Positions 569-10,104 of a stretch of DNA of 64,000 nucleotides are shown in pieces (the first letter of the stretch is position 1; every line of letters starts with the position of its first letter). The position numbers and the translations under genes are program-made. The DNA is taken from positions 62,001 to 126,000 of the forward strand of contig NCGO01000003.1 in assembly GCA_002256985.1 (NCBI GenBank), in the 5' to 3' direction. A model generated the notes under the pieces. The model saw nothing but the letters and a program-made list of their open reading frames with translations. It was not told the DNA's origin and made no database searches. Source of the stretch: Novosphingobium sp. 28-62-57 (lineage in GTDB: Bacteria > Pseudomonadota > Alphaproteobacteria > Sphingomonadales > Sphingomonadaceae).

Positions 569-1372
569 TCAATGCCCGCTGGGGTCAATCGCGTTTTCAG
601 GGATCCAGCCGTTTACGATGCCGCCATCGATGGGGAGCGGCGTGCCGACCACATAATCGCCGGCGCGGCTGGCGAGGAAGATTGCACCACCGGCCATATC
701 CTCGATGGTGCCGACACGCTTTGACGGGATGCCCTTTGATGAGGCTTCGGGATTGCGCGCAGCGGCCTTGTTCATTTCCGAAGGGAACGCGCCGGGGCAG
801 ATGCAGCTGACCACGATGTTGTCGCGAATCAGGCGCGCGGCCATGCGCTTGGTCAGGTGGACCAGCGCGGCCTTTGACGCCTGATAGCTGTAGGTTTCCC
901 ATGGATTGATGCGCAGGCCATCGATCGAGGCGATGTTGATGACTTTGGCGGGCTGGCCATCCTTGGCTGAGGCCATCAGCAGGTCGTGCAGCTTTTGCGT
1001 GAGGAAGAACGGGGTCTTGACGTTGAGGTCCATGACCTTGTCCCAGCCCACTTCGGGGAAATCCTCGAACTCCGCGCCCCATGCCGCGCCTGCGTTGTTG
1101 ACCAGAATGTCGATCTTGTCTTCGCGCGCGGCGAGATCGGCGGCGAGCTGTTCGATTCCCGCTACGTTGGAAATGTCCCCGGCGATGGCGATGCAGCGTT
1201 CGCCGAGGCGGGCGGCGGTTTCTTCGACCACCGACACTTTGCGCGCGGTGATGTAAACGCGCTCGCATCCGGCGGCGATGAAGCCTTCGGCGATCATTGC
1301 GCCAATGCCGCGCGATCCGCCGGTGACGACCGCGACGCGGCCTTCGAGGCTGAAGAGTTTGGTGAAATCCAT
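569..1372 (-). CDS. Short-chain dehydrogenase/reductase (SDR)
   Basis: A 267-residue classical SDR, an NAD(P)-dependent oxidoreductase. The nucleotide-binding Rossmann motif TGGSRGIG is at residues ~17-24, the NNAG motif at ~90, the catalytic Ser lies in INIASIDGL, and the YxxxK pair is in YSYQASKAAL. The C-terminal segment ends with the usual GG-containing loop. It is the last gene of a minus-strand set behind two acyl-CoA dehydrogenases, so it probably oxidises or reduces a hydroxyacyl-CoA or related intermediate of the same pathway. That role is inferred from context only; the substrate cannot be read from sequence. The 156-bp gap before it contains a type D palindromic repeat. Confidence 0.88.
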   Translation of the reverse strand: MDFTKLFSLEGRVAVVTGGSRGIGAMIAEGFIAAGCERVYITARKVSVVEETAARLGERCIAIAGDISNVAGIEQLAADLAAREDKIDILVNNAGAAWGAEFEDFPEVGWDKVMDLNVKTPFFLTQKLHDLLMASAKDGQPAKVINIASIDGLRINPWETYSYQASKAALVHLTKRMAARLIRDNIVVSCICPGAFPSEMNKAAARNPEASSKGIPSKRVGTIEDMAGGAIFLASRAGDYVVGTPLPIDGGIVNGWIPENAIDPSGH

Positions 1373-1528: not shown

Positions 1529-2668
1529 TCAATACCCGCTGAGTTGGGCTACGCGTTCGGCGTGGTAGTATTGGTCGCCCATGAATTCGGCCAAGGACCG
1601 GTCGCGCTTCATGTAGAGGCCGATGTCGTATTCGTCGGTCATGCCGACGCCGCCGTGCATCTGCACGCCTTCGCGGACCGAGAGGTTGCAGGCCTTCGAT
1701 GCCTTGGCCTTGGCGACCGAGACCATCAGGTCGGCCTTTTCCGAATTGCCATCGAGCAGCTGCTGGGCCTTGATCACGGCGGCTTCGGCGATTTCGAGTT
1801 CGGAATAGAGGTGCGCGGCGCGGTGTTGGAGGGCCTGGAATTCACCGATCAACTGGCCGAATTGCTTGCGCGTTTTGAGGTAGGCGGTGGTGATGTCGAA
1901 AGCGCCCTGCCCTACGCCGGTCAGCTCTGCCGCCGCGCCGATGCGGCCTGCGTTGATGACCTTGTTCAGCAAGGCGCGGCCGCCATCGACTTCGCCAATC
2001 ACGCAATCGCCATCGAGTTCGACATTGTCGAAAGTGACGTTGCTGGCCATGGCGCTGTCGACGAGACGCAGGCTTTCGTGGGACAGGCCCGATGCGTCCT
2101 TGGGCACGGCGAACAGCGTGATGCCATCAGCGTCGCTGTCACTGCCCGATGTACGCGCGGCGACGATGATCGCGTCTGCCGAGGCACCGTGGACGACGAA
2201 CGCCTTGCGGCCCTGCAGGCGGAAGCCATTGCCGGCCTTTTCGGCCTTGCACGCGATGCGTTCGGGGCGGTGCTTGGGGCCTTCGTCGATGGCCAGCGCC
2301 AGCACGCTTTCGCCTGCCAGCACGCCGGGCAGCCAGCGGCCGCGCAGGTCATCGGACCCGCCGGAAAGCGCGGTAACGCCCATGACCGAGGTGGTCAGAA
2401 ACGGCGATGGCGTGAGGTTGCGGCCGATTTCGCGCAGCACGATCCCGGCTTCGACATGGCCCATCGCAAGGCCACCATCAGCCTCTGCCGCCAGCATCCC
2501 GGTAAGGCCCATTTCGGCAAACTGCTTCCACAGCGCGTGGCCGAAGCCATCCTTGCAGTTCATGTCGCGGAAGTGGCGCAACTGCTGCTTGATCGCGCCT
2601 TCATCGGCCATGAAGCCGGTGACGGTATCGGCCAGCATGGCCTGATCTTCGGTGTGGTAAAGTGGCAT
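1529..2668 (-). CDS. Acyl-CoA dehydrogenase family protein, probable non-catalytic partner subunit
   Basis: A ~379-residue acyl-CoA dehydrogenase (FAD flavoprotein fold). The start at 2668 (MPLYHTEDQ...) was chosen because the frame upstream only runs through a palindromic repeat. The N-terminal helical domain, the beta domain and a C-terminal flavin segment (TRKQFGQLIGEFQALQH, then HGGVGMTDEYDIG) are visible. The usual C-terminal EG(G)T segment carrying a catalytic Glu is absent; the equivalent stretch reads SLAEFMGDQYYH. It lies just downstream of a second dehydrogenase of similar size. This fits the alpha/beta heterotetrameric dehydrogenases known from sterol side-chain degradation, in which one subunit lacks the base. 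Heteromer formation is inference. Confidence 0.85.
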   Translation of the reverse strand: MPLYHTEDQAMLADTVTGFMADEGAIKQQLRHFRDMNCKDGFGHALWKQFAEMGLTGMLAAEADGGLAMGHVEAGIVLREIGRNLTPSPFLTTSVMGVTALSGGSDDLRGRWLPGVLAGESVLALAIDEGPKHRPERIACKAEKAGNGFRLQGRKAFVVHGASADAIIVAARTSGSDSDADGITLFAVPKDASGLSHESLRLVDSAMASNVTFDNVELDGDCVIGEVDGGRALLNKVINAGRIGAAAELTGVGQGAFDITTAYLKTRKQFGQLIGEFQALQHRAAHLYSELEIAEAAVIKAQQLLDGNSEKADLMVSVAKAKASKACNLSVREGVQMHGGVGMTDEYDIGLYMKRDRSLAEFMGDQYYHAERVAQLSGY

Positions 2669-2799: not shown

Positions 2800-3960
2800 T
2801 TACGCTCCCGGCAGTTCGAGAATGCGTTTGGCAACGACGTTGAGCATGACTTCGCTGGTGCCGCCTTCGATCGAGTTGGCCTTGGTGCGCAGCCACGAGC
2901 GTGAGGGCGTGCCGCCACTGGTGCGTTCGCTATCCCATTCGAGCGCGGTGGCGCCGCCTGCGGCCATCAGCAATTCGTGGCGGCGCTTGTTCAGTTCGGT
3001 GCCGACATATTTCATCATGTTCGGCTGCGCGGGATGCGCCTTGCCGACTTTGGCTTCATCAAGGAACTTCTCGCCCATGCAGGCATAGGCCAGCGCATCG
3101 ACATCGAACTGGGCGAGTTCGGCGCGCAGGATCGGGTCTTCGAGGCCGTTTCTGGCAACGACCGCGCCGATGGCGTTGAGCCGGTCCCCGCCGCCCGCGC
3201 CCGAGATCATCTCGCGCTCATGCCCCAACAGGTACTTGGCCACGTCCCAACCGCGGTTGAGTTCGCCGACGATCTGGTGCTTGGGCACCACGACATTGTC
3301 GAAGAAGGTTTCGCAAAAGGGCGAATTGCCGCTGATCAGCTTGATCGGCTTGGTGGTGACGCCGGGCGTGGTCATGTCGAACAACAGGAAACTGATGCCC
3401 TGATACTTGTTCGCCTTGTCGGTGCGGACGAGGCAGAAGATCCAGTCGGCCTTGTCGGCATAGGAGGTCCAGATTTTCTGGCCGTTGACGACCCAATGAT
3501 CGCCCTTGTCTTCGCCGAAGGTCTGCAAGCTGACAAGGTCCGAGCCTGAGCCTGGTTCGGAATAGCCCTGACACCAGCGGATTTCGCCGCGGGCGATCTG
3601 GTTCAGGTAGTGGACCTTCTGCTCTTCCGTGCCGAACTTCAGCAGCGCAGGGCCGAGCATCCAGATGCCGAAGCTGGACAGCGGCGGGCGCGCGCCGATG
3701 CGGGCGCATTCCTCGCGCCAGATCTTGGCCTGTGCCGGAGACATGCCTGCGCCGCCATAAGCCTGCGGCCAATCGGGCACGGTGTAGCCCTTGGCGACGC
3801 AGCGTTCGAGCCAGGTCTTTTGCGCTGCGTTCTTGAACTGGAAGTTGCGGCCGCCCCAGCAGACATCGGCCTCGTCGCGGGCAGGCTCGCGCATCTCTGC
3901 GGGGCAGTTTTCTTCAAGCCAAGCGCGGATTTCGGCGCGGAAAGCATCATGGTCAGACAT
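2800..3960 (-). CDS. Acyl-CoA dehydrogenase, probable catalytic subunit
   Basis: A 386-residue acyl-CoA dehydrogenase that would introduce a 2,3 double bond into an acyl-CoA using FAD. Visible landmarks are YSEPGSGSDLVSLQT (the flavin-contacting loop of the middle domain), WIFCLVRTDK, the HEREMI helix that could hold a catalytic Glu, and the C-terminal SIEGGTSEVMLNVVAKRIL segment carrying the EGGT motif. It is the first gene of the minus-strand set, with an AGGAG ribosome site just upstream. An 18-bp dyad lies at 3975-3992, immediately in front of that site. The sequence resembles the FadE-type enzymes that act on steroid or terpenoid side chains, but the substrate is not determinable. Confidence 0.9.
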   Translation of the reverse strand: MSDHDAFRAEIRAWLEENCPAEMREPARDEADVCWGGRNFQFKNAAQKTWLERCVAKGYTVPDWPQAYGGAGMSPAQAKIWREECARIGARPPLSSFGIWMLGPALLKFGTEEQKVHYLNQIARGEIRWCQGYSEPGSGSDLVSLQTFGEDKGDHWVVNGQKIWTSYADKADWIFCLVRTDKANKYQGISFLLFDMTTPGVTTKPIKLISGNSPFCETFFDNVVVPKHQIVGELNRGWDVAKYLLGHEREMISGAGGGDRLNAIGAVVARNGLEDPILRAELAQFDVDALAYACMGEKFLDEAKVGKAHPAQPNMMKYVGTELNKRRHELLMAAGGATALEWDSERTSGGTPSRSWLRTKANSIEGGTSEVMLNVVAKRILELPGA

Positions 3961-3974
3961 GGTTGTGCTCCTAT

Positions 3975-3992
3975 CTTAATCGACAGGTTAAG
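3975..3992. promoter_or_regulatory. 18-bp dyad operator, copy 1
   Basis: The sequence CTTAATCGACAGGTTAAG has arms CTTAA / TTAAG separated by 8 bp. It lies directly upstream of the ribosome site of the 3960 dehydrogenase, in the divergent region with the SDR at 4155. The same architecture, with a conserved CGAC core, recurs at 6435-6452. Size and symmetry suit a TetR-family repressor. No such regulator is encoded in the window. Confidence 0.6.
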
Positions 3993-4067
3993 GCGAGTCG
4001 CGCCTTGCTGGCAAGCGCCGAATTTCGGGGCGTTGCCTGCGCTTTGGGGCAAGCCAAGCATGCCGTA

Positions 4068-4092
4068 GCGTCAAGCGCATGTGCATTGACGC
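4068..4092. promoter_or_regulatory. Second dyad in the divergent catabolic promoter region
   Basis: GCGTCAA and TTGACGC form perfect 7-bp arms separated by 11 bp that are themselves nearly symmetric (GCGCATGTGCA). It sits midway between the divergent genes starting at 3960 and 4155, and it places a TTGACG hexamer on both strands. It is a possible regulator site or a pair of -35 elements; no convincing -10 element is visible at the right spacing. Confidence 0.4.
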
Positions 4093-4154
4093 GAGGTCTT
4101 TCGCGCCTAAGCTGACGTAAACGTAAAACAACAAGAATTTCGCTGGAGAGTGAG

Positions 4155-5003
4155 ATGCGATTCAACGGGAAGACGGTCGTCGTGACCGGCGCGGCATCGG
4201 GTATTGGGCGCGCGACGGCCATTGCCTTTGCCGCCGAGGGAGCCACGGTTTACGCCGCCGATATCGATGAAGCGGGGCTGGAGGAGACGGCCAGCGCTTC
4301 GAACGGCAAGGTGGTGACCGCGCGTTGCGATGTGACGCGGTGTGAGGACATCAAGGCGCTGATGGACCGGGCCGCGGCAGAGACCGGCGGCATCGACTGC
4401 GTGTTCAACAATGCAGGGGCCGGCGGGGATCGCGCCCCGATTGACGAGATCGAACCCGAAGGCTGGGACCGGACGATGGACCTGCTGCTGCGCTCGGTCG
4501 CGTTCGGCATCCGCTATGCCGTGCCGCACATGATCGGGCGCAAGGGTGCAGCGTTCGTCAACACATCGAGCGTGGCCGCTGTCGGCCCGGGCTATTCGCC
4601 CACCGCCTATGCCGTGGCCAAGGCGGGCGTGCTGCACCTGACCAAGGTGGCGGCGGCAGACCTGGCCAAGCACCAGATCCGGGTGAACGCGGTGCAGCCG
4701 GGCTTTATCAACACCAACATCTTCACCAGTTCGATGGGCATGCCCGAAGCGCTGGAAGCGCAGGCCAAGGGGGCCATCGCGGCGATGTCTGCCAGCGCGC
4801 AGCCGGTGGCGCGCGGTGGGCAGGCCGATGACATTGCACTGGCCGTGCTGTTTCTGGCGAGCGAGGCGGCGAGCTTTGTTACCGGCACGTCGCTGATCGT
4901 GGATGGCGGCATCACCATCGGGCCGCGGCAAAGCTGGGACCCTGCTATGCCCGGCCTGTTCGAAGCGCTGCAACAGATGGCGGACGGCGCGAAAGGCGCA
5001 TGA
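4155..5003 (+). CDS. Short-chain dehydrogenase/reductase (SDR)
   Basis: A 282-residue classical SDR. The Rossmann motif TGAASGIGRA is at residues ~11-20, NNAGAGG near 87, the catalytic Ser is in NTSSVAAV, and the YxxxK pair is in TAYAVAKAG. A GGAGAGTGAG stretch precedes the ATG. The stop overlaps the ATG of the transporter gene by four bases (ATGA), so the two are translationally coupled. Together with the downstream dehydrogenases and kinase it probably interconverts a hydroxy and a keto group on a carbon source taken up by that transporter; this is inference. It diverges from the acyl-CoA dehydrogenase operon across a region with two dyads. Confidence 0.88.
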   Translation: MRFNGKTVVVTGAASGIGRATAIAFAAEGATVYAADIDEAGLEETASASNGKVVTARCDVTRCEDIKALMDRAAAETGGIDCVFNNAGAGGDRAPIDEIEPEGWDRTMDLLLRSVAFGIRYAVPHMIGRKGAAFVNTSSVAAVGPGYSPTAYAVAKAGVLHLTKVAAADLAKHQIRVNAVQPGFINTNIFTSSMGMPEALEAQAKGAIAAMSASAQPVARGGQADDIALAVLFLASEAASFVTGTSLIVDGGITIGPRQSWDPAMPGLFEALQQMADGAKGA

Positions 5004-6427
5004 TCCCCGTTGCGGGCAAGGTGCCCACCCGCCTCGCCCTGTTCAACGGGCTGGGCAGCGTGGCCTATGGCGTGAAGGACAGCGGTTTCGCCACATTCCT
5101 GCTGCTGTTCTACAATCAGGTGCTGGGGATGGACGCGCGGCTGGTGAGCCTTGCGCTGCTGATTGCGCTGGTGTTCGATGGGCTGATCGATCCGGTGGTG
5201 GGCCATTTCAGCGACCGGACGCGCACGGCATGGGGGCGGCGGCTGCCGTTCCTCTACCTTGCGCCAATTCCGCTGGCTTTGGCATGGGTGTTCCTGTGGT
5301 CACCGGTGGGAGAGCCAAACTTCTGGCTGCTGTTGGGCTCGGCCATCATGGTGCGCGCGCTGGTGGCGATGTGCGAGGTGCCGTCGGCAGCGCTGATACC
5401 TGAGATTACCCGCGATTATGACGAGCGCACGCGGTTGACGCGGTTTCGGTTCCTGTTTTCGTGGGGTGGCGGGTTGCTGATGCTGCTGCTGGCCTATGGC
5501 GTGTTCCTGCCGAACGCGATGCTGGCGCGCGAGGGCTATCGCAATCTGGGGCTGTTTGGCGCAGGCCTGATGGCGGTGGGCGTGCTGGTTTCAGCCATGG
5601 GGCAGCACCGTTGGGTCAAGGGCTGGCCGCCCGAGCGCGCCACTGGCGGCAAGAGCGCGCTGGCATCATTGGGTGACATCCGCGAGAGCTTTTCGCACCC
5701 GGCCTGCCTGATCGTGATGGGCGGGATTGCGGCGGCGCTGACCGCGCAGGGGATTACCTTTGCGCTGTCGAACTACCTCTACCTTTATATCTGGAAGTTC
5801 ACGCCCACCGCGCTGCAGGCGTTTCCATTCCTGCTGTTTGCCAGCGTGATCGGCGCGTCGCTGCTGGTCGGCCCGGCGCAGAGGCGCTGGGGCAAAGTGG
5901 GCACGGTGGTGCGGATGGCACCGCTGGGCATGCTGTTCTGGGCCGGGCCGCTGCTGCTGCGCTGGCAGGGGCTGTGGGCTCCTGATGGGACGACATTGGC
6001 ATTCGCCGGAATGTTTGCCGGGACGCTGCTGTCGAACATGTTCACGGTCACCGGCACGATGACTCTCTGGTCGATGGTAGCCGATGTGACTGAGGCTTCG
6101 GAGGAACAGACCGGGCGCAGATCGGAAGGCACGCTTTCGGCAGGGGCGTTCCTTGCCAGCAAGTGCGCGGGCGGGCTTGGCGTGTTCGTGGCAGGGCTGC
6201 TGCTGAGCTTTGCCGGGCTGGAGGCGAATACCCCGCCCGATCAGGTCCTGCCCGAGGTGACCTACCGGCTGAGCCTTGCCTATGTGGCGAGCATTGCGGT
6301 GCTGGCGATCCTTACGGCATTGATTGTGCGCCGCTTTCCGATTGACCGAGCGGCGCATGTGGCCCGGGTCGCCCGCTTGGATCAGATCGCGCGGGCTGAT
6401 CCCGATGCATCTGGACTGCATCCATAG
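5000..6427 (+). CDS. MFS transporter of the GPH (glycoside-pentoside-hexuronide:cation symporter) type
   Basis: A 475-residue polytopic inner-membrane protein with about 12 hydrophobic segments. The family signature follows the second membrane segment: DPVVGHFSDRTRTAWGRRLP, which is the D-P-x-x-G-x-x-S-D-R-T-R-T-x-x-G-R-R-x-P pattern of GPH symporters. The start overlaps the SDR stop (ATGA). Many GPH members move sugars, but sphingomonad members next to acyl-CoA genes may carry other substrates. The substrate here is therefore open, and uptake of the compound degraded by the neighbouring enzymes is a context-based guess. Confidence 0.85.
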   Translation: MIPVAGKVPTRLALFNGLGSVAYGVKDSGFATFLLLFYNQVLGMDARLVSLALLIALVFDGLIDPVVGHFSDRTRTAWGRRLPFLYLAPIPLALAWVFLWSPVGEPNFWLLLGSAIMVRALVAMCEVPSAALIPEITRDYDERTRLTRFRFLFSWGGGLLMLLLAYGVFLPNAMLAREGYRNLGLFGAGLMAVGVLVSAMGQHRWVKGWPPERATGGKSALASLGDIRESFSHPACLIVMGGIAAALTAQGITFALSNYLYLYIWKFTPTALQAFPFLLFASVIGASLLVGPAQRRWGKVGTVVRMAPLGMLFWAGPLLLRWQGLWAPDGTTLAFAGMFAGTLLSNMFTVTGTMTLWSMVADVTEASEEQTGRRSEGTLSAGAFLASKCAGGLGVFVAGLLLSFAGLEANTPPDQVLPEVTYRLSLAYVASIAVLAILTALIVRRFPIDRAAHVARVARLDQIARADPDASGLHP

Positions 6428-6434
6428 CACAACT

Positions 6435-6452
6435 TAACCGACCGCTTAAGTT
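6435..6452. promoter_or_regulatory. 18-bp dyad operator, copy 2
   Basis: CTTAACCGACCGCTTAAG, extended by one more pair on each side (A...T), lies 57 bp upstream of the ACAD10/11-like gene start. Compared with copy 1 at 3975, both arms and the inner CGAC are identical, giving CTTAAyCGACmGsTTAAG. This suggests that the minus-strand operon, the plus-strand SDR/transporter pair and this gene answer to one regulator. Confidence 0.6.
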
Positions 6453-6509: not shown

Positions 6510-7802
6510 ATGGATTTTGAACCGACCGACCGCCAGAAGTACTGGCGTGACCGCGTCCGCCAGTTCATCGAAGACAACGTCCGCCCGCGCCACAAGGACT
6601 ATAAGGCGGAGCAGGCCACGGGCGAGCGCTGGAAGGTTCTGCAAACGGTGGAGCAGGAAAAGGCCAAGGCCAAGGCGGCAGGCATCTGGAACCTGTTCAT
6701 GCCCCCGCGCAATGGCGGGCACCACCATGTGGAAGAGACATTCGAGTTCGAAGGTCCGGGCCTGACCAACCTTGAATATGCGCTGTGTGCGGAGGAAATG
6801 GGCCGCATCGGTTGGGCCAGCGAAGTGTTCAACTGCTCTGCGCCCGATACCGGCAACATGGAAGTGTTCCACCGCTACGGCACGCTGGAGCACAAGGAGC
6901 AGTGGCTGCGCCCGCTGATGAACGGCGAGATTCGCTCGGCCTTTCTGATGACCGAACCAGCGGTGGCATCGTCTGATGCGACAAATATCGAAACATCGAT
7001 CCGGCGGGATGGCGATCATTACGTGATCAATGGGCGCAAGTGGTGGTCATCGGGCGTGGGTGATCCGCGCTGCAAGATTGCCATCGTGATGGGCAAGACC
7101 GATTTCGAAGCCAAGCGCCACCAGCAGCAGTCCATGATCCTGATGCCGCTGGATGCGCCGGGCGTCGAGGTCGTGCGTCACCTGCCTGTGTTCGGCTATG
7201 ACGATGCGCCGCATGGCCACATGGAAGTGGTGATGAACGATGTGCGCGTGCCTGCTTCCAACATACTGCTGGGCGAAGGGCGCGGGTTCGAGATTGCGCA
7301 AGGCCGCCTCGGGCCGGGCCGCATCCACCACTGCATGCGCACCATCGGCGTGGCCGAAGAGGCGCTGGCCAAGATGGCCAAGCGGCTGCAATCGCGCGTG
7401 GCCTTTGGCAAGCGGGTGTCCGAACAATCGGTGTGGGAATGGCGCATCGCGCAGGCCCGCATCGACATCGAAATGACGCGCCTGTTGTGCCTGAAAGCCG
7501 CCGACATGATGGACACGGTGGGCAACAAAGCCGCCGCGCTCGAAATCGCCATGATCAAGGTGCAGGCCCCGCAAATGGCGCTGCGCATCATCGACGACGC
7601 CATTCAGGCGCATGGCGGTGGCGGGGTTTCGGAGGACTTCGGGCTCGCCGAAGCCTATGCCCATCAGCGGACGCTGCGGCTGGCCGATGGGCCTGACGAA
7701 GTGCACGCCCGCTCCATCGCGCGGATCGAATTTGCGCGTCATTCGGATATGCCGGGTAGTGATCGCGGGTTCAGTTCGGGTGATGTGGGCGTGGCGCGTT
7801 AG
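6510..7802 (+). CDS. Acyl-CoA dehydrogenase, ACAD10/ACAD11-like
   Basis: A 430-residue acyl-CoA dehydrogenase preceded by an AAGGAGAGG ribosome site. The N-terminal segment ([11 protein letters not shown]-type region, then [12 protein letters not shown]), the middle-domain [14 protein letters not shown] and the C-terminal [20 protein letters not shown] followed by [18 protein letters not shown] are typical of the ACAD10/11-like group. In this group ADGPDEV replaces the EGT segment of ordinary enzymes. Human ACAD10/11 and Pseudomonas LvaC work with an APH-type kinase on 4-hydroxyacyl-CoAs. Such a kinase is encoded at 9028-10104, which supports a 4-hydroxy-acid role here by inference. A dyad operator lies 57 bp upstream. 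Confidence 0.88.
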
Positions 7803-7819
7803 GCAAGTCCCCAAACTTG

Positions 7820-7904
7820 GCGTCCCCGCGAAGGCGGGGACCTCGGTGTTGTTACGGAACCTGCGAGTAAAAGGCCTGAGGCCCCCGCCTTCGCGGGGGT
7901 GCAC
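7820..7904. repeat. Bipartite palindromic repeat, type A
   Basis: CGTCCCCGCGAAGGCGGGGA(C) on the left and GCCCCCGCCTTCGCGGGGG on the right surround a degenerate inner pair (GTTACGGAACC / CGAGTAAAAGGCC). It fills the gap between the ACAD10/11-like gene and the alcohol dehydrogenase gene. It is the same family as 412-555 and 36009-36092. Confidence 0.85.
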
Positions 7905-7942
7905 ATTGTTTTGATGGTTCATCCTGTTTCTGGAGTTGTCGC

Positions 7943-9031
7943 ATGAAAGCTGCCGTCCTTGTCGCACCGGGTAGTCCGCTGGAAATCCATGACCTGACAG
8001 TCTCCAAGCCCGGCCCGCACGAAGTCCTGATTCGCACCGCCGCTTGCGGACTGTGCCATTCGGACCTGCACTTCATCGATGGCGCCTACCCTCACCCCCT
8101 GCCCGCTGTGCCGGGGCACGAGGCGGCTGGCATTGTCGAGGCGGTGGGCAGTGAGGTGCGCACGGTGAAAGTGGGCGATGCGGTTGTTACTTGCCTCTCG
8201 GCGTTCTGTGGCCACTGCGAATTCTGCGTGACCGGGCGGATGGCGCTGTGCCTTGGCGGTGAAACGCGGCGCGGGGCGGGCCAGCCGCCGCGCCTGACGC
8301 GCAGCGATGATGGCAGCACGGTCAACCAGATGCTCAACCTTTCGGCTTTTGCCGAGCAGATGCTGGTGCATGAACATGCCTGTGTGGCGATCAATCCCGA
8401 TATGCCGCTGGACCGGGCCGCTGTGATCGGTTGCGCGGTGACGACCGGCGCGGGCGCGGTGTTCAATGCGGCCAAGCTGGTGCCGGGCGAGACGATCTGC
8501 GTGGTCGGCTGCGGCGGGGTGGGCCTTGCCACGATCAACGCGGCCAAGATTGCGGGCGCAGGCCGGATCATCGCGGTCGATCCGATCGCCGAAAAGCGCG
8601 AGCTGGCGATGAAGCTGGGCGCGACCGATGTGATGGACGCAGGGCCGGATTCCGCCGCGCAGATCGTGGAGATGACCAAGGGCGGCGTGCACCATGCTAT
8701 CGAAGCGGTGGGGCGTCCGGCATCGGGCGATCTGGCGGTGGCGACGCTGCGGCGTGGCGGCACGGCGACGATTCTGGGCATGATGCCGCTGGCTCACAAA
8801 GTCGGCCTTTCGGCGATGGACTTGCTTTCGGACAAGAAGCTGCAAGGGGCTGTAATGGGGCAGAACCGCTTCCCGGTGGACCTGCCGCGTCTGGTCGATT
8901 TCTACATGCGCGGACTGCTCGATCTCGACACGATCATTGCCGAGCGCATTCCGCTTTCGGCCATCAATGACGGGTTCGAGAAAATGAAGCAGGGCCATTC
9001 CGCCCGCTCGGTCATCGTGTTCGATCAATGA
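7943..9031 (+). CDS. Zinc-dependent alcohol dehydrogenase (MDR superfamily)
   Basis: A 362-residue medium-chain dehydrogenase that oxidises an alcohol with NAD(P). The catalytic zinc ligands are in CGLCHSDLHF (Cys ~35) and PGHEAAGIVEAVG (His-Glu). The structural zinc lobe has Cys residues in CLSAFCGHCEFC and CLGG, and the nucleotide-binding motif is VGCGGVGLATINAAK. The lobe pattern and the long loop after it resemble class III or aryl-alcohol type enzymes. The stop overlaps the kinase ATG by four bases, so both are made together. It probably handles a hydroxylated intermediate of the surrounding pathway; the substrate is unknown. Confidence 0.88.
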   Translation: MKAAVLVAPGSPLEIHDLTVSKPGPHEVLIRTAACGLCHSDLHFIDGAYPHPLPAVPGHEAAGIVEAVGSEVRTVKVGDAVVTCLSAFCGHCEFCVTGRMALCLGGETRRGAGQPPRLTRSDDGSTVNQMLNLSAFAEQMLVHEHACVAINPDMPLDRAAVIGCAVTTGAGAVFNAAKLVPGETICVVGCGGVGLATINAAKIAGAGRIIAVDPIAEKRELAMKLGATDVMDAGPDSAAQIVEMTKGGVHHAIEAVGRPASGDLAVATLRRGGTATILGMMPLAHKVGLSAMDLLSDKKLQGAVMGQNRFPVDLPRLVDFYMRGLLDLDTIIAERIPLSAINDGFEKMKQGHSARSVIVFDQ

Positions 9032-10104
9032 GCGAAGCGCCGATGGATGCCCAGACGGCCTTCACCGGGACGGTAACGCCCGAGGGAGTGGACAAGCTGG
9101 ACGAGGCTGCCCTCACCCGCTGGTTCGAAGAGCATGTCGAGGGGTTTGCGGGGCCGTTGACGGTTTCGAAGTTCAAGGGCGGGCAATCGAACCCGACCTA
9201 CAAGATTGAAAGCCCGTCTGGCCCCTATGTGCTGCGGCGCAAGCCTTTCGGCAAGTTGCTGCCATCAGCGCATGCGGTGGACCGGGAATACAAGGTGCAG
9301 GCGGGTCTGTTCGGCACCGGCTTTCCGGTGGCGCGGCAATATGGGCTGTGCACCGACGAGAGCGTGATTGGATCGTGGTTCTATGTGATGGGCTGCGTCG
9401 AGGGTCGGACGATCTGGGACGGGGCTATGCCGGGGGCCACGGCGGATTTCCGGTGCGCGACTTATGACGCGATGGTCGATACGCTGGCGGCGCTGCATGC
9501 GGTCGATGTCGAGGCGGCGGGGCTTGGCGATTATGGCAAGCCGGGCAATTACTTCGGGCGGCAGGTTGACCGCTGGACCAAGCAGTACCGCCTGTCTGAA
9601 ACCGAGACGATGCCCGACATGGAGCGGCTGATCGAGTGGCTGCCCGCCACCTTGCCCGAACAGACCCGCACCAGCGTGGTCCACGGCGATTACCGCATCG
9701 ACAACATGATCTTTCACCCGACCGAGGCCCGGGTCGTGGCCGTGCTGGACTGGGAGCTTTCAACGCTGGGCGATCCGTTGGCGGACTTCACCTACTTTTG
9801 CACGGCGTGGGTGCAGGACAATGCAGGGCGTTCAGGCGTTCAGGATGTTGATCGGAAGGCCTTGGGCATTCCTGAGCTGGACGAAGTGGTGGCACGCTAT
9901 TGCGCGCAGACCGGGCGCGATGGCCTGCCGAATTTGGATTGGTACATCGGTTACAACTTCTTCCGTCTGGCGGCGATCGTCCAGGGGATCAAGAAGCGCG
10001 TGATCGACGGCACGGCATCGAGCGCGCACGCCAGGGCGATGTCGGAGCGGGTCAAGCCGCTGGCTGAACTGGCGCTGGGCTTTGCGGTGAAGGCCGGGGC
10101 CTGA
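9028..10104 (+). CDS. APH-type phosphotransferase of the ACAD10/11 N-terminal family
   Basis: A 358-residue protein of the aminoglycoside phosphotransferase/choline kinase fold. The nucleotide-binding part shows KFKGGQSNPTYKI and YVLRRKPFGKLLPSAH. The catalytic loop is HGDYRIDNMIFH, and the metal-binding Asp is in VLDWELSTLGDPLADFTY. This set of motifs defines the domain fused to the acyl-CoA dehydrogenase in human ACAD10/11 and found separately as LvaA in Pseudomonas. Members phosphorylate the 4-hydroxy group of acyl-CoAs before elimination. The dehydrogenase partner is encoded two genes upstream (6510-7802). An antibiotic resistance role is unlikely given this context. Confidence 0.87.
   Translation: MSEAPMDAQTAFTGTVTPEGVDKLDEAALTRWFEEHVEGFAGPLTVSKFKGGQSNPTYKIESPSGPYVLRRKPFGKLLPSAHAVDREYKVQAGLFGTGFPVARQYGLCTDESVIGSWFYVMGCVEGRTIWDGAMPGATADFRCATYDAMVDTLAALHAVDVEAAGLGDYGKPGNYFGRQVDRWTKQYRLSETETMPDMERLIEWLPATLPEQTRTSVVHGDYRIDNMIFHPTEARVVAVLDWELSTLGDPLADFTYFCTAWVQDNAGRSGVQDVDRKALGIPELDEVVARYCAQTGRDGLPNLDWYIGYNFFRLAAIVQGIKKRVIDGTASSAHARAMSERVKPLAELALGFAVKAGA

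Follow-up and report, generated by a model that had tools for sequence, protein, structure and literature searches.

The DNA considered here is a stretch of 64,000 nucleotides from Novosphingobium sp. 28-62-57 (contig NCGO01000003.1 of assembly GCA_002256985.1, positions 62,001 to 126,000), referred to below as the window, in which an 18-bp inverted repeat (dyad) stands in front of two groups of catabolic genes (Table 1). Dyad 1 heads a pimeloyl-CoA-dehydrogenase-like operon on the minus strand, and dyad 2 heads a split ACAD11-like operon (6510-10104) made up of a dehydrogenase gene, a zinc alcohol dehydrogenase gene and a kinase gene. A sequence-only reading of this DNA had noticed the repeated dyad and had pointed out that both copies precede catabolic genes. 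Both observations hold upon closer inspection, since the dyads lie 14 bp and 59 bp, respectively, before the starts of acyl-CoA dehydrogenase (ACAD) genes, namely the minus-strand gene 2800-3960 and the ACAD11-like gene at 6510. The same reading had located dyad 1 correctly at 3975-3992, but its position for dyad 2 (6435-6452) is two bases too high. Also, the arms (CTTAA/TTAAG) are the same in both dyads, as it had claimed, whereas the core, which it had likewise taken to be identical, is shared in part only. As to its placement of dyad 1 in a divergent promoter region, the site is indeed near both genes, but because it is 14 bp from the minus-strand start as compared to 162 bp from the plus-strand gene for a short-chain dehydrogenase/reductase (SDR), we assign it mainly to the minus-strand operon.

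Table 1. Features of the window around the two dyads, and the regulator gene located elsewhere in the genome
Feature	Position	Strand	Remark
SDR family oxidoreductase	569..1372	-	probably within the minus-strand operon of dyad 1
Acyl-CoA dehydrogenase	1529..2668	-	best NCBIfam match pimeloyl-CoA dehydrogenase small subunit, far under cut-off
Acyl-CoA dehydrogenase	2800..3960	-	best NCBIfam match pimeloyl-CoA dehydrogenase large subunit, far under cut-off
Dyad 1 (candidate operator)	3975..3992	.	CTTAATCGACAGGTTAAG
Candidate -35 element TTGCCA of the minus-strand ACAD promoter	4009..4014	-	CTTGC-type element kept in orthologs at about the same distance
SDR oxidoreductase	4155..5003	+	faces away from dyad 1; control by the dyad uncertain
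MFS_2/GPH-type transporter	5000..6427	+	gene end 5 bp before dyad 2
Dyad 2 (candidate operator)	6433..6450	.	CTTAACCGACCGCTTAAG
Candidate -35 element TTGAAA	6458..6463	+	just downstream of dyad 2
ACAD11-like acyl-CoA dehydrogenase	6510..7802	+	matches the dehydrogenase half of ACAD11 (8v3u residues 381-767, E 7.1e-134)
Zinc-dependent alcohol dehydrogenase	7943..9031	+	
APH-family kinase	9028..10104	+	matches the kinase half of ACAD11 (8v3v residues 13-352, E 1.1e-80); Pfam APH
TetR regulator gene	G000:C29:169985-170635		ortholog of Novosphingobium aromaticivorans Saro_1072

Form, placement and conservation of the dyad

Within the window, there are three matches to the dyad with up to three mismatches, one of which is site 2 on the opposite strand. 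Shuffled windows contained 0.06 such matches on average, and none of 100 shuffles reached three. In the whole genome (4.1 Mb), the pattern CTTAAyCGACmGsTTAAG, as formulated in the sequence-only reading, is matched exactly by the window pair alone; one further site differs from it at one position and two others at two, and all five are intergenic. At up to three mismatches on both strands, this exact pattern is at background level (16 matches vs 21 for the reversed pattern), and it was replaced by the symmetric consensus to which the dyad resolves across sites, the 18-mer CTTAAYCG-NN-CGRTTAAG (CTTAAYCGNNCGRTTAAG), with YTTAAYCG-NN-CGRTTAAR as a wider form. With at most one mismatch, the consensus is present at six sites in this genome and the reversed pattern at none, which places the dyad beyond chance. 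In the genus, the same search returned 141 sites in 33 of 59 genomes, and seven matches to the reversed pattern.

Of the three added sites in this genome, two are on contig C1 at a distance of 2.9 kb, where they precede a gene for a MoxR-like AAA ATPase and a VWA/CoxE-like gene, and the third is on contig C29 in front of a thiolase gene. At L015:8051-12216, VWA/CoxE-like and MoxR-type AAA ATPase genes about 3 kb apart each have a strong site of their own, as do homologs of either gene in other species.

To call sites intergenic, a simple gene caller based on codon usage was employed, with a tolerance of 20 bp at gene ends, under which 91% of the sequence is coding. Many matches inside genes would have spoken against the regulon proposed in the sequence-only reading, but the strong matches lie outside genes: all 63 sites with at most one mismatch from eight genomes (G000, G003, G004, G009, G044, G046, G053, G054) are intergenic, and each is within 85 bp of the called start codon of a gene that the site faces. 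The reversed pattern, searched with up to three mismatches in the same DNA, has four matches, all of them inside genes. In the present genome, there are eight further sites with two mismatches, and of the seven inspected (C23:65119 was left out), six are intergenic and one is within a called gene, 71 bp from the gene end. At up to three mismatches, the symmetric form is at background (47 matches vs 39 reversed); five inspected matches with three or more mismatches comprise one intergenic match, before a P450 gene, and four inside genes.

The two window sites are also kept in orthologous promoters, which were picked by protein similarity and thus independently of the motif, such that the second result named in the sequence-only reading as a refutation, a lack of conservation, did not occur either. 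Dyad 1 is present with up to three mismatches in 23 of 26 assessable promoters (two more loci, in which the gene start is missing, were left out), always 13-17 bp before the start codon, and the proteins of the three loci without it are 51-75% identical. Dyad 2 is kept at the same stringency in 20 of 30 promoters, though one of these 20 matches (in L222) is really the site belonging to the divergent neighbour. The ten loci without dyad 2 comprise five orthologs or paralogs of 55-74% identity, three loci with a four-mismatch form, and two (L209 and L224) with none. The best match to the reversed pattern in orthologous promoters always has at least five mismatches. Among the 23 dyad 1-type promoters, the mean frequency of the majority base is 0.93 in the arms, as compared to 0.76 in the 30 bases before and 0.67 in the 14 bases after the dyad, and the two central dyad bases are variable.

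As for chance or a dispersed repeat as the source of the dyads, we regard this idea as refuted in light of the above. It could draw on the weak matches, which are at background for both forms of the pattern and, where inspected, lie inside genes in four of five cases. However, it is at odds with the intergenic position of every strong site in the eight genomes, with arms that are better kept than their flanks, and with flanks that differ from site to site.

A TetR gene behind its own copy of the site

The sequence-only reading had suggested a local regulon under a TetR-type repressor encoded elsewhere. By sequence, the second part of this proposal stands, and a TetR gene with its own copy of the site is found on contig C29, whereas the predicted regulon is not local, but spread across the genome and extends beyond the genus. 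The C29 site heads a run of thiolase, SDR, enoyl-CoA hydratase and TetR genes, which is followed by a MarR gene and a gene for an FAA hydrolase. The TetR protein matches the TetR-type ligand-binding domain PF14514 (TetR_C_9; E 4.2e-67), and it shares 91% identity with the protein of the PDB entries 2QTQ/2RHA (saro_1072 in the structure library; E 1.3e-122) across residues 11-216 of 217. At E 0.001, the listed Pfam matches do not include TetR_N, but phmmer aligns the N-terminal part with 2QTQ and other TetR structures, which indicates an N-terminal helix-turn-helix (HTH). A stretch of this HTH, GLNSALVKYYFGNK, does not vary among 20 aligned orthologs or among the 33 family orthologs. A predicted model is of middling quality (mean predicted local distance difference test score, pLDDT, of 73), and its fold neighbours past 2QTQ/2RHA are general TetR proteins. 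Several of these neighbours regulate fatty-acid genes (FadR from B. subtilis and from B. halodurans, and FasR), and PfmR is also among them, but the matches are too weak to fix a ligand.

Saro_1072 of N. aromaticivorans itself has had a crystal structure since 2007 and was deposited as a predicted DNA-binding regulator with unassigned function. Among the matches listed in open-licence PubMed Central (PMC) text, there is no site, regulon, ligand or function for Saro_1072 and no mention of the motif, and an earlier prediction elsewhere is possible; nor did that text yield a paper with the locus tag of Saro_1072 or those of two neighbours. Both structure codes, 2QTQ and 2RHA, occur in one crystallographic methods paper among those listed.

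The search upstream of tetR covered up to 4.3 kb at 80 named loci (the best 80 of 258, nearly all from Novosphingobium or unnamed Sphingomonadales) and at 33 family-wide orthologs, two sets that possibly overlap in species. Ten named loci ended by contig edges were left out. With the pattern YTTAAYCGNNCGRTTAAR (Y...R form), which was loosened after viewing these loci, a site with at most two mismatches is found at 66 of 70 named and 30 of 33 family loci, i.e., 96 of 103, as compared to none of 103 for the reversed pattern. In all 96 cases, the gene that opens the run towards tetR (the first one recognised) is preceded by the site at no more than 150 bp, and the runs have the orders thiolase-SDR-hydratase-TetR (57), SDR-TetR (31), thiolase-SDR-TetR (4), tetR alone (3) and thiolase-TetR (1). 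At four paralog loci (40-43% identity), no site with at most two mismatches is present upstream of the gene. The link between the site and the TetR gene is strong; like the form of the motif, its placement and its conservation, it is a result of computation. In three loci of one genus (g83; L270, L271, L273), two site-like matches are seen per operon, one before the thiolase gene and the other just before tetR.

We conclude, with a probability of roughly 85%, that both window dyads are operators of one autoregulating TetR repressor, the Saro_1072 ortholog, which would control a widespread acyl-CoA catabolic regulon and be relieved by acyl-CoA. The co-occurrence of motif and regulator agrees with this. 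In a family sample of 249 genomes that are at least 90% complete, with TetR called at 59% identity or more (a cut-off chosen once a gap from 45% to 59% had become visible), the motif (at most one mismatch) is present in 21 of 34 TetR-bearing genomes (60 sites) vs 8 of 215 others (8 sites; Fisher p 1.5e-15), and by genus in 9 of 10 with TetR vs 8 of 81 without (p 2.8e-7). In the 215 genomes without TetR, the reversed pattern has 17 matches as compared to the 8 motif sites. In the genus sample, 54 of 59 genomes have a TetR match (G017 by paralogs only), and 33 have the motif.

Several points weigh against the conclusion that this TetR protein reads the dyads as a repressor. The relatedness of the species inflates the two p-values given above. 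Thirteen of the 34 TetR-bearing family genomes and 22 of the 54 TetR-matching genus genomes carry no site of the C...G form at one mismatch or less. Ten of the 13 have a site of the Y...R form (at most one mismatch) before tetR, and in these the added regulon seems to be absent or diverged. Conversely, one genome (G018, 80% complete) has four sites and no TetR match. Seven assessable tetR loci are without a site at up to two mismatches, five of them having a three-mismatch form in a similar place and two (L045 and L046) none. Furthermore, two of the four inspected paralogs share the HTH stretch NSALVKYYFGNK and yet have no site before their gene; the invariant HTH is thus unspecific and does not by itself decide the site, and paralogs might read a similar one. 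Lastly, some of the genes behind sites are not evident acyl-CoA enzymes (MoxR-like AAA ATPase, VWA/CoxE, nitroreductase, GST, HAD hydrolase, EamA transporter), and at distal-type sites, including dyad 2, activation is as possible as repression.

The shared HTH stretch leads to the question whether the dyad could be bound by some unlinked regulator, or by a TetR paralog whose HTH is similar, with the Saro_1072-type TetR being a mere member of the regulon. Co-occurrence and operon membership are no proof that TetR binds the dyad, and such an arrangement would be compatible with them. We nonetheless consider it quite unlikely, because the site keeps its place ahead of the tetR operon in all five gene orders, and because genomes without a TetR of at least 59% identity have the motif at background only.

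The MarR-type regulator next to tetR (Saro_1073 ortholog, L016:5304-5762) deserves attention as well, as it, rather than TetR, could bind the dyad. Its gene adjoins tetR here, and MarR proteins also bind palindromes of similar length. For Saro_1073, whose orthology to the local MarR is taken from position and family name, DNA affinity purification sequencing (DAP-seq) in N. aromaticivorans gave nine peaks (PMC12352068). The 44 regulators tested in that study include Saro_1073, but not Saro_1072. However, the distribution of the MarR gene makes it a highly improbable candidate, and we reject it. A MarR relative (E up to 1e-20) is found in 187 of the 249 family genomes, including all 34 with TetR, but among genomes without TetR the motif is present in 4 of 153 with MarR vs 4 of 62 with neither, such that MarR is no predictor of the motif. 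Moreover, where a site precedes the tetR operon (96 loci), a MarR relative is missing in 27 cases (with at least 2.5 kb downstream of tetR seen), as compared to 48 loci with one and 21 that are too short to tell.

Proposed mechanism and reach of the regulon

How might the Saro_1072-type TetR act at these sites? Given the -35 candidate at 4009..4014, dyad 1 would cover the -10 element and the start point. The same may apply to proximal sites in general (at most 45 bp from the start codon, n=47), since 16 of them have TTGA/TTGC 20-24 bases before the dyad, a count that is generous because related promoters are counted repeatedly; the best window of the same size averages 3.4 in shuffled sequences, and none of 2000 shuffles reaches 16. 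The -10 element and the start point would thus fall within proximal dyads, the usual place of a blocking repressor. Distal-type sites (n=16) have eight TTGA/TTGC occurrences 5-9 bases after the dyad, a count to be taken as equally generous, which would put the dyad just upstream of the -35 element. This is a usual position for an activator, and the regulator could therefore be an activator, or have a dual role, at distal-type sites such as dyad 2. We hold this to be unlikely overall, though with more weight than the other alternatives, because TetR proteins mostly repress and because the likely -10 element and start point are covered at proximal sites.

The placement of the sites, the nature of the targets and the habits of TetR proteins suggest repression at proximal sites, autoregulation and release by an acyl-CoA. 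A TetR dimer would bind the wider form of the motif in the core promoters of acyl-CoA-catabolic operons. In its ligand-free state, it would stand in the way of RNA polymerase, with the -10 element and the start point hidden beneath it at proximal sites, and it would be released by an acyl-CoA that arises from the induced pathways or is imported and activated. Because its gene sits in a site-controlled operon (thiolase-SDR-enoyl-CoA hydratase-TetR), the regulator would limit its own synthesis. This autoregulated operon may represent the constant core across TetR-bearing Sphingomonadaceae, to which Novosphingobium lineages (the genus being judged from named TetR loci) may have added up to about a dozen target operons, including the window pair.

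The targets were classified by Pfam for 40 gene products (39 site neighbours and one second gene), for 10 more in this genome and for first-site contexts; in divergent pairs, the member that is the target was left unassigned. Acyl-CoA-type products comprise acyl-CoA dehydrogenases, enoyl-CoA hydratases, thiolases, AMP-dependent (acyl-CoA) ligases, a class III CoA-transferase, a succinyl-CoA-ligase-type protein and an acyl-CoA thioesterase. Oxidoreductases and kinases are represented by SDR and zinc alcohol dehydrogenases, P450s, GMC oxidoreductases, nitronate-monooxygenase-like, old-yellow-type and FMO-like enzymes, and APH-type kinases. Products of other kinds are nitroreductase, GST, M20 peptidase, HAD hydrolase, universal stress protein, EamA transporters, ThiF, inositol phosphatase, amidohydrolase, DUF3604, PQQ dehydrogenase, TonB receptor, a beta-lactamase-family neighbour, MoxR and VWA. 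The content is hence that of beta-oxidation and related acyl-CoA genes, as in PsrA/FadP-type regulators, with some other kinds included.

For the operon behind dyad 2, a more specific role can be considered. ACAD10/ACAD11 and bacterial LvaA/LvaC, with a kinase and a dehydrogenase, channel 4-hydroxyacyl-CoAs into beta-oxidation (PMC11342911). The dyad 2 operon encodes both of these parts and, because the named systems act in this way, it probably feeds 4-hydroxyacyl-CoAs into beta-oxidation, too. It differs from animal ACAD11 in that the parts are two separate genes with an alcohol dehydrogenase gene in between, and its substrate role is read from sequence. In other species, APH-type kinase genes also follow sites (L195 and L199, one with a weak DUF6285 match and one EcKL-like), and kinase-dependent acyl pathways may thus recur in the regulon. 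Between the two dyads, a sequence with ACGTAAACGTAAAA that we take to resemble a LiuR site lies at about 4112-4128, before the SDR gene at 4155, and is present in 2 of 23 orthologous regions.

On a larger scale, the Saro_1072-type TetR could be the master sensor through which a large part of the Sphingomonadaceae control acyl-CoA catabolism, with an old autoregulated thiolase-SDR-hydratase-TetR core to which Novosphingobium repeatedly recruited operons for acyl groups that are hard to oxidise (dicarboxylic, hydroxylated, P450-oxidised), a view for which we see the odds as evenly balanced. If it is true, one site motif could be used to find catabolic pathways not yet known, genome by genome. 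Apart from this larger view, a repressor that is structurally solved but functionally orphan, from bacteria that are used to convert lignin aromatics, now has a proposed DNA site, together with a candidate regulon and a proposed autoregulatory circuit, and many dehydrogenases, ligases, kinases and P450s, including the bacterial split ACAD11, are grouped into one physiological set. The motif offers a direct, testable handle on the control of acyl-CoA catabolism in Sphingomonadaceae.

Comparison with known systems

The regulator is of a known type, and among the matches listed in open-licence PMC text its site and regulon are nowhere described. Like PsrA and FadP, it is a TetR protein with a (here predicted) multi-operon regulon for fatty-acid-type degradation. 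No clear orthology to PsrA was seen, since 2FBQ, which we take to be PsrA, matches the regulator only over residues 23-97 (E 5.9e-4). In Proteobacteria, the fatty-acid degradation regulons of PsrA and FadP comprise on average 11.1 and 17.9 genes per genome, and FadP differs from the present regulator in being described as unique to betaproteobacteria (PMC5343134). KstR and KstR2 of mycobacteria are TetR repressors of large lipid-catabolic regulons (PMC1995591, PMC3068626), and the KstR operator also precedes kstR's own gene (PMC8700777). By description, this resembles the large lipid-type regulon and the site before the regulator's own gene that we find here, though in another phylum. In the sphingomonad Caenibius tardaugens, steroid (estrogen) catabolism is repressed by EdcR, whose palindromic operator overlies the -10 box (PMC8700777). 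EdcR shares with the Saro_1072 ortholog the catabolic role in a sphingomonad and the palindrome over a -10 element (a predicted one in our case), but its operator TnnCnnTACnAnTnGTAnnGnnA is unlike the dyad in a comparison by eye with base counts, and it belongs to PF16859 rather than to PF14514.

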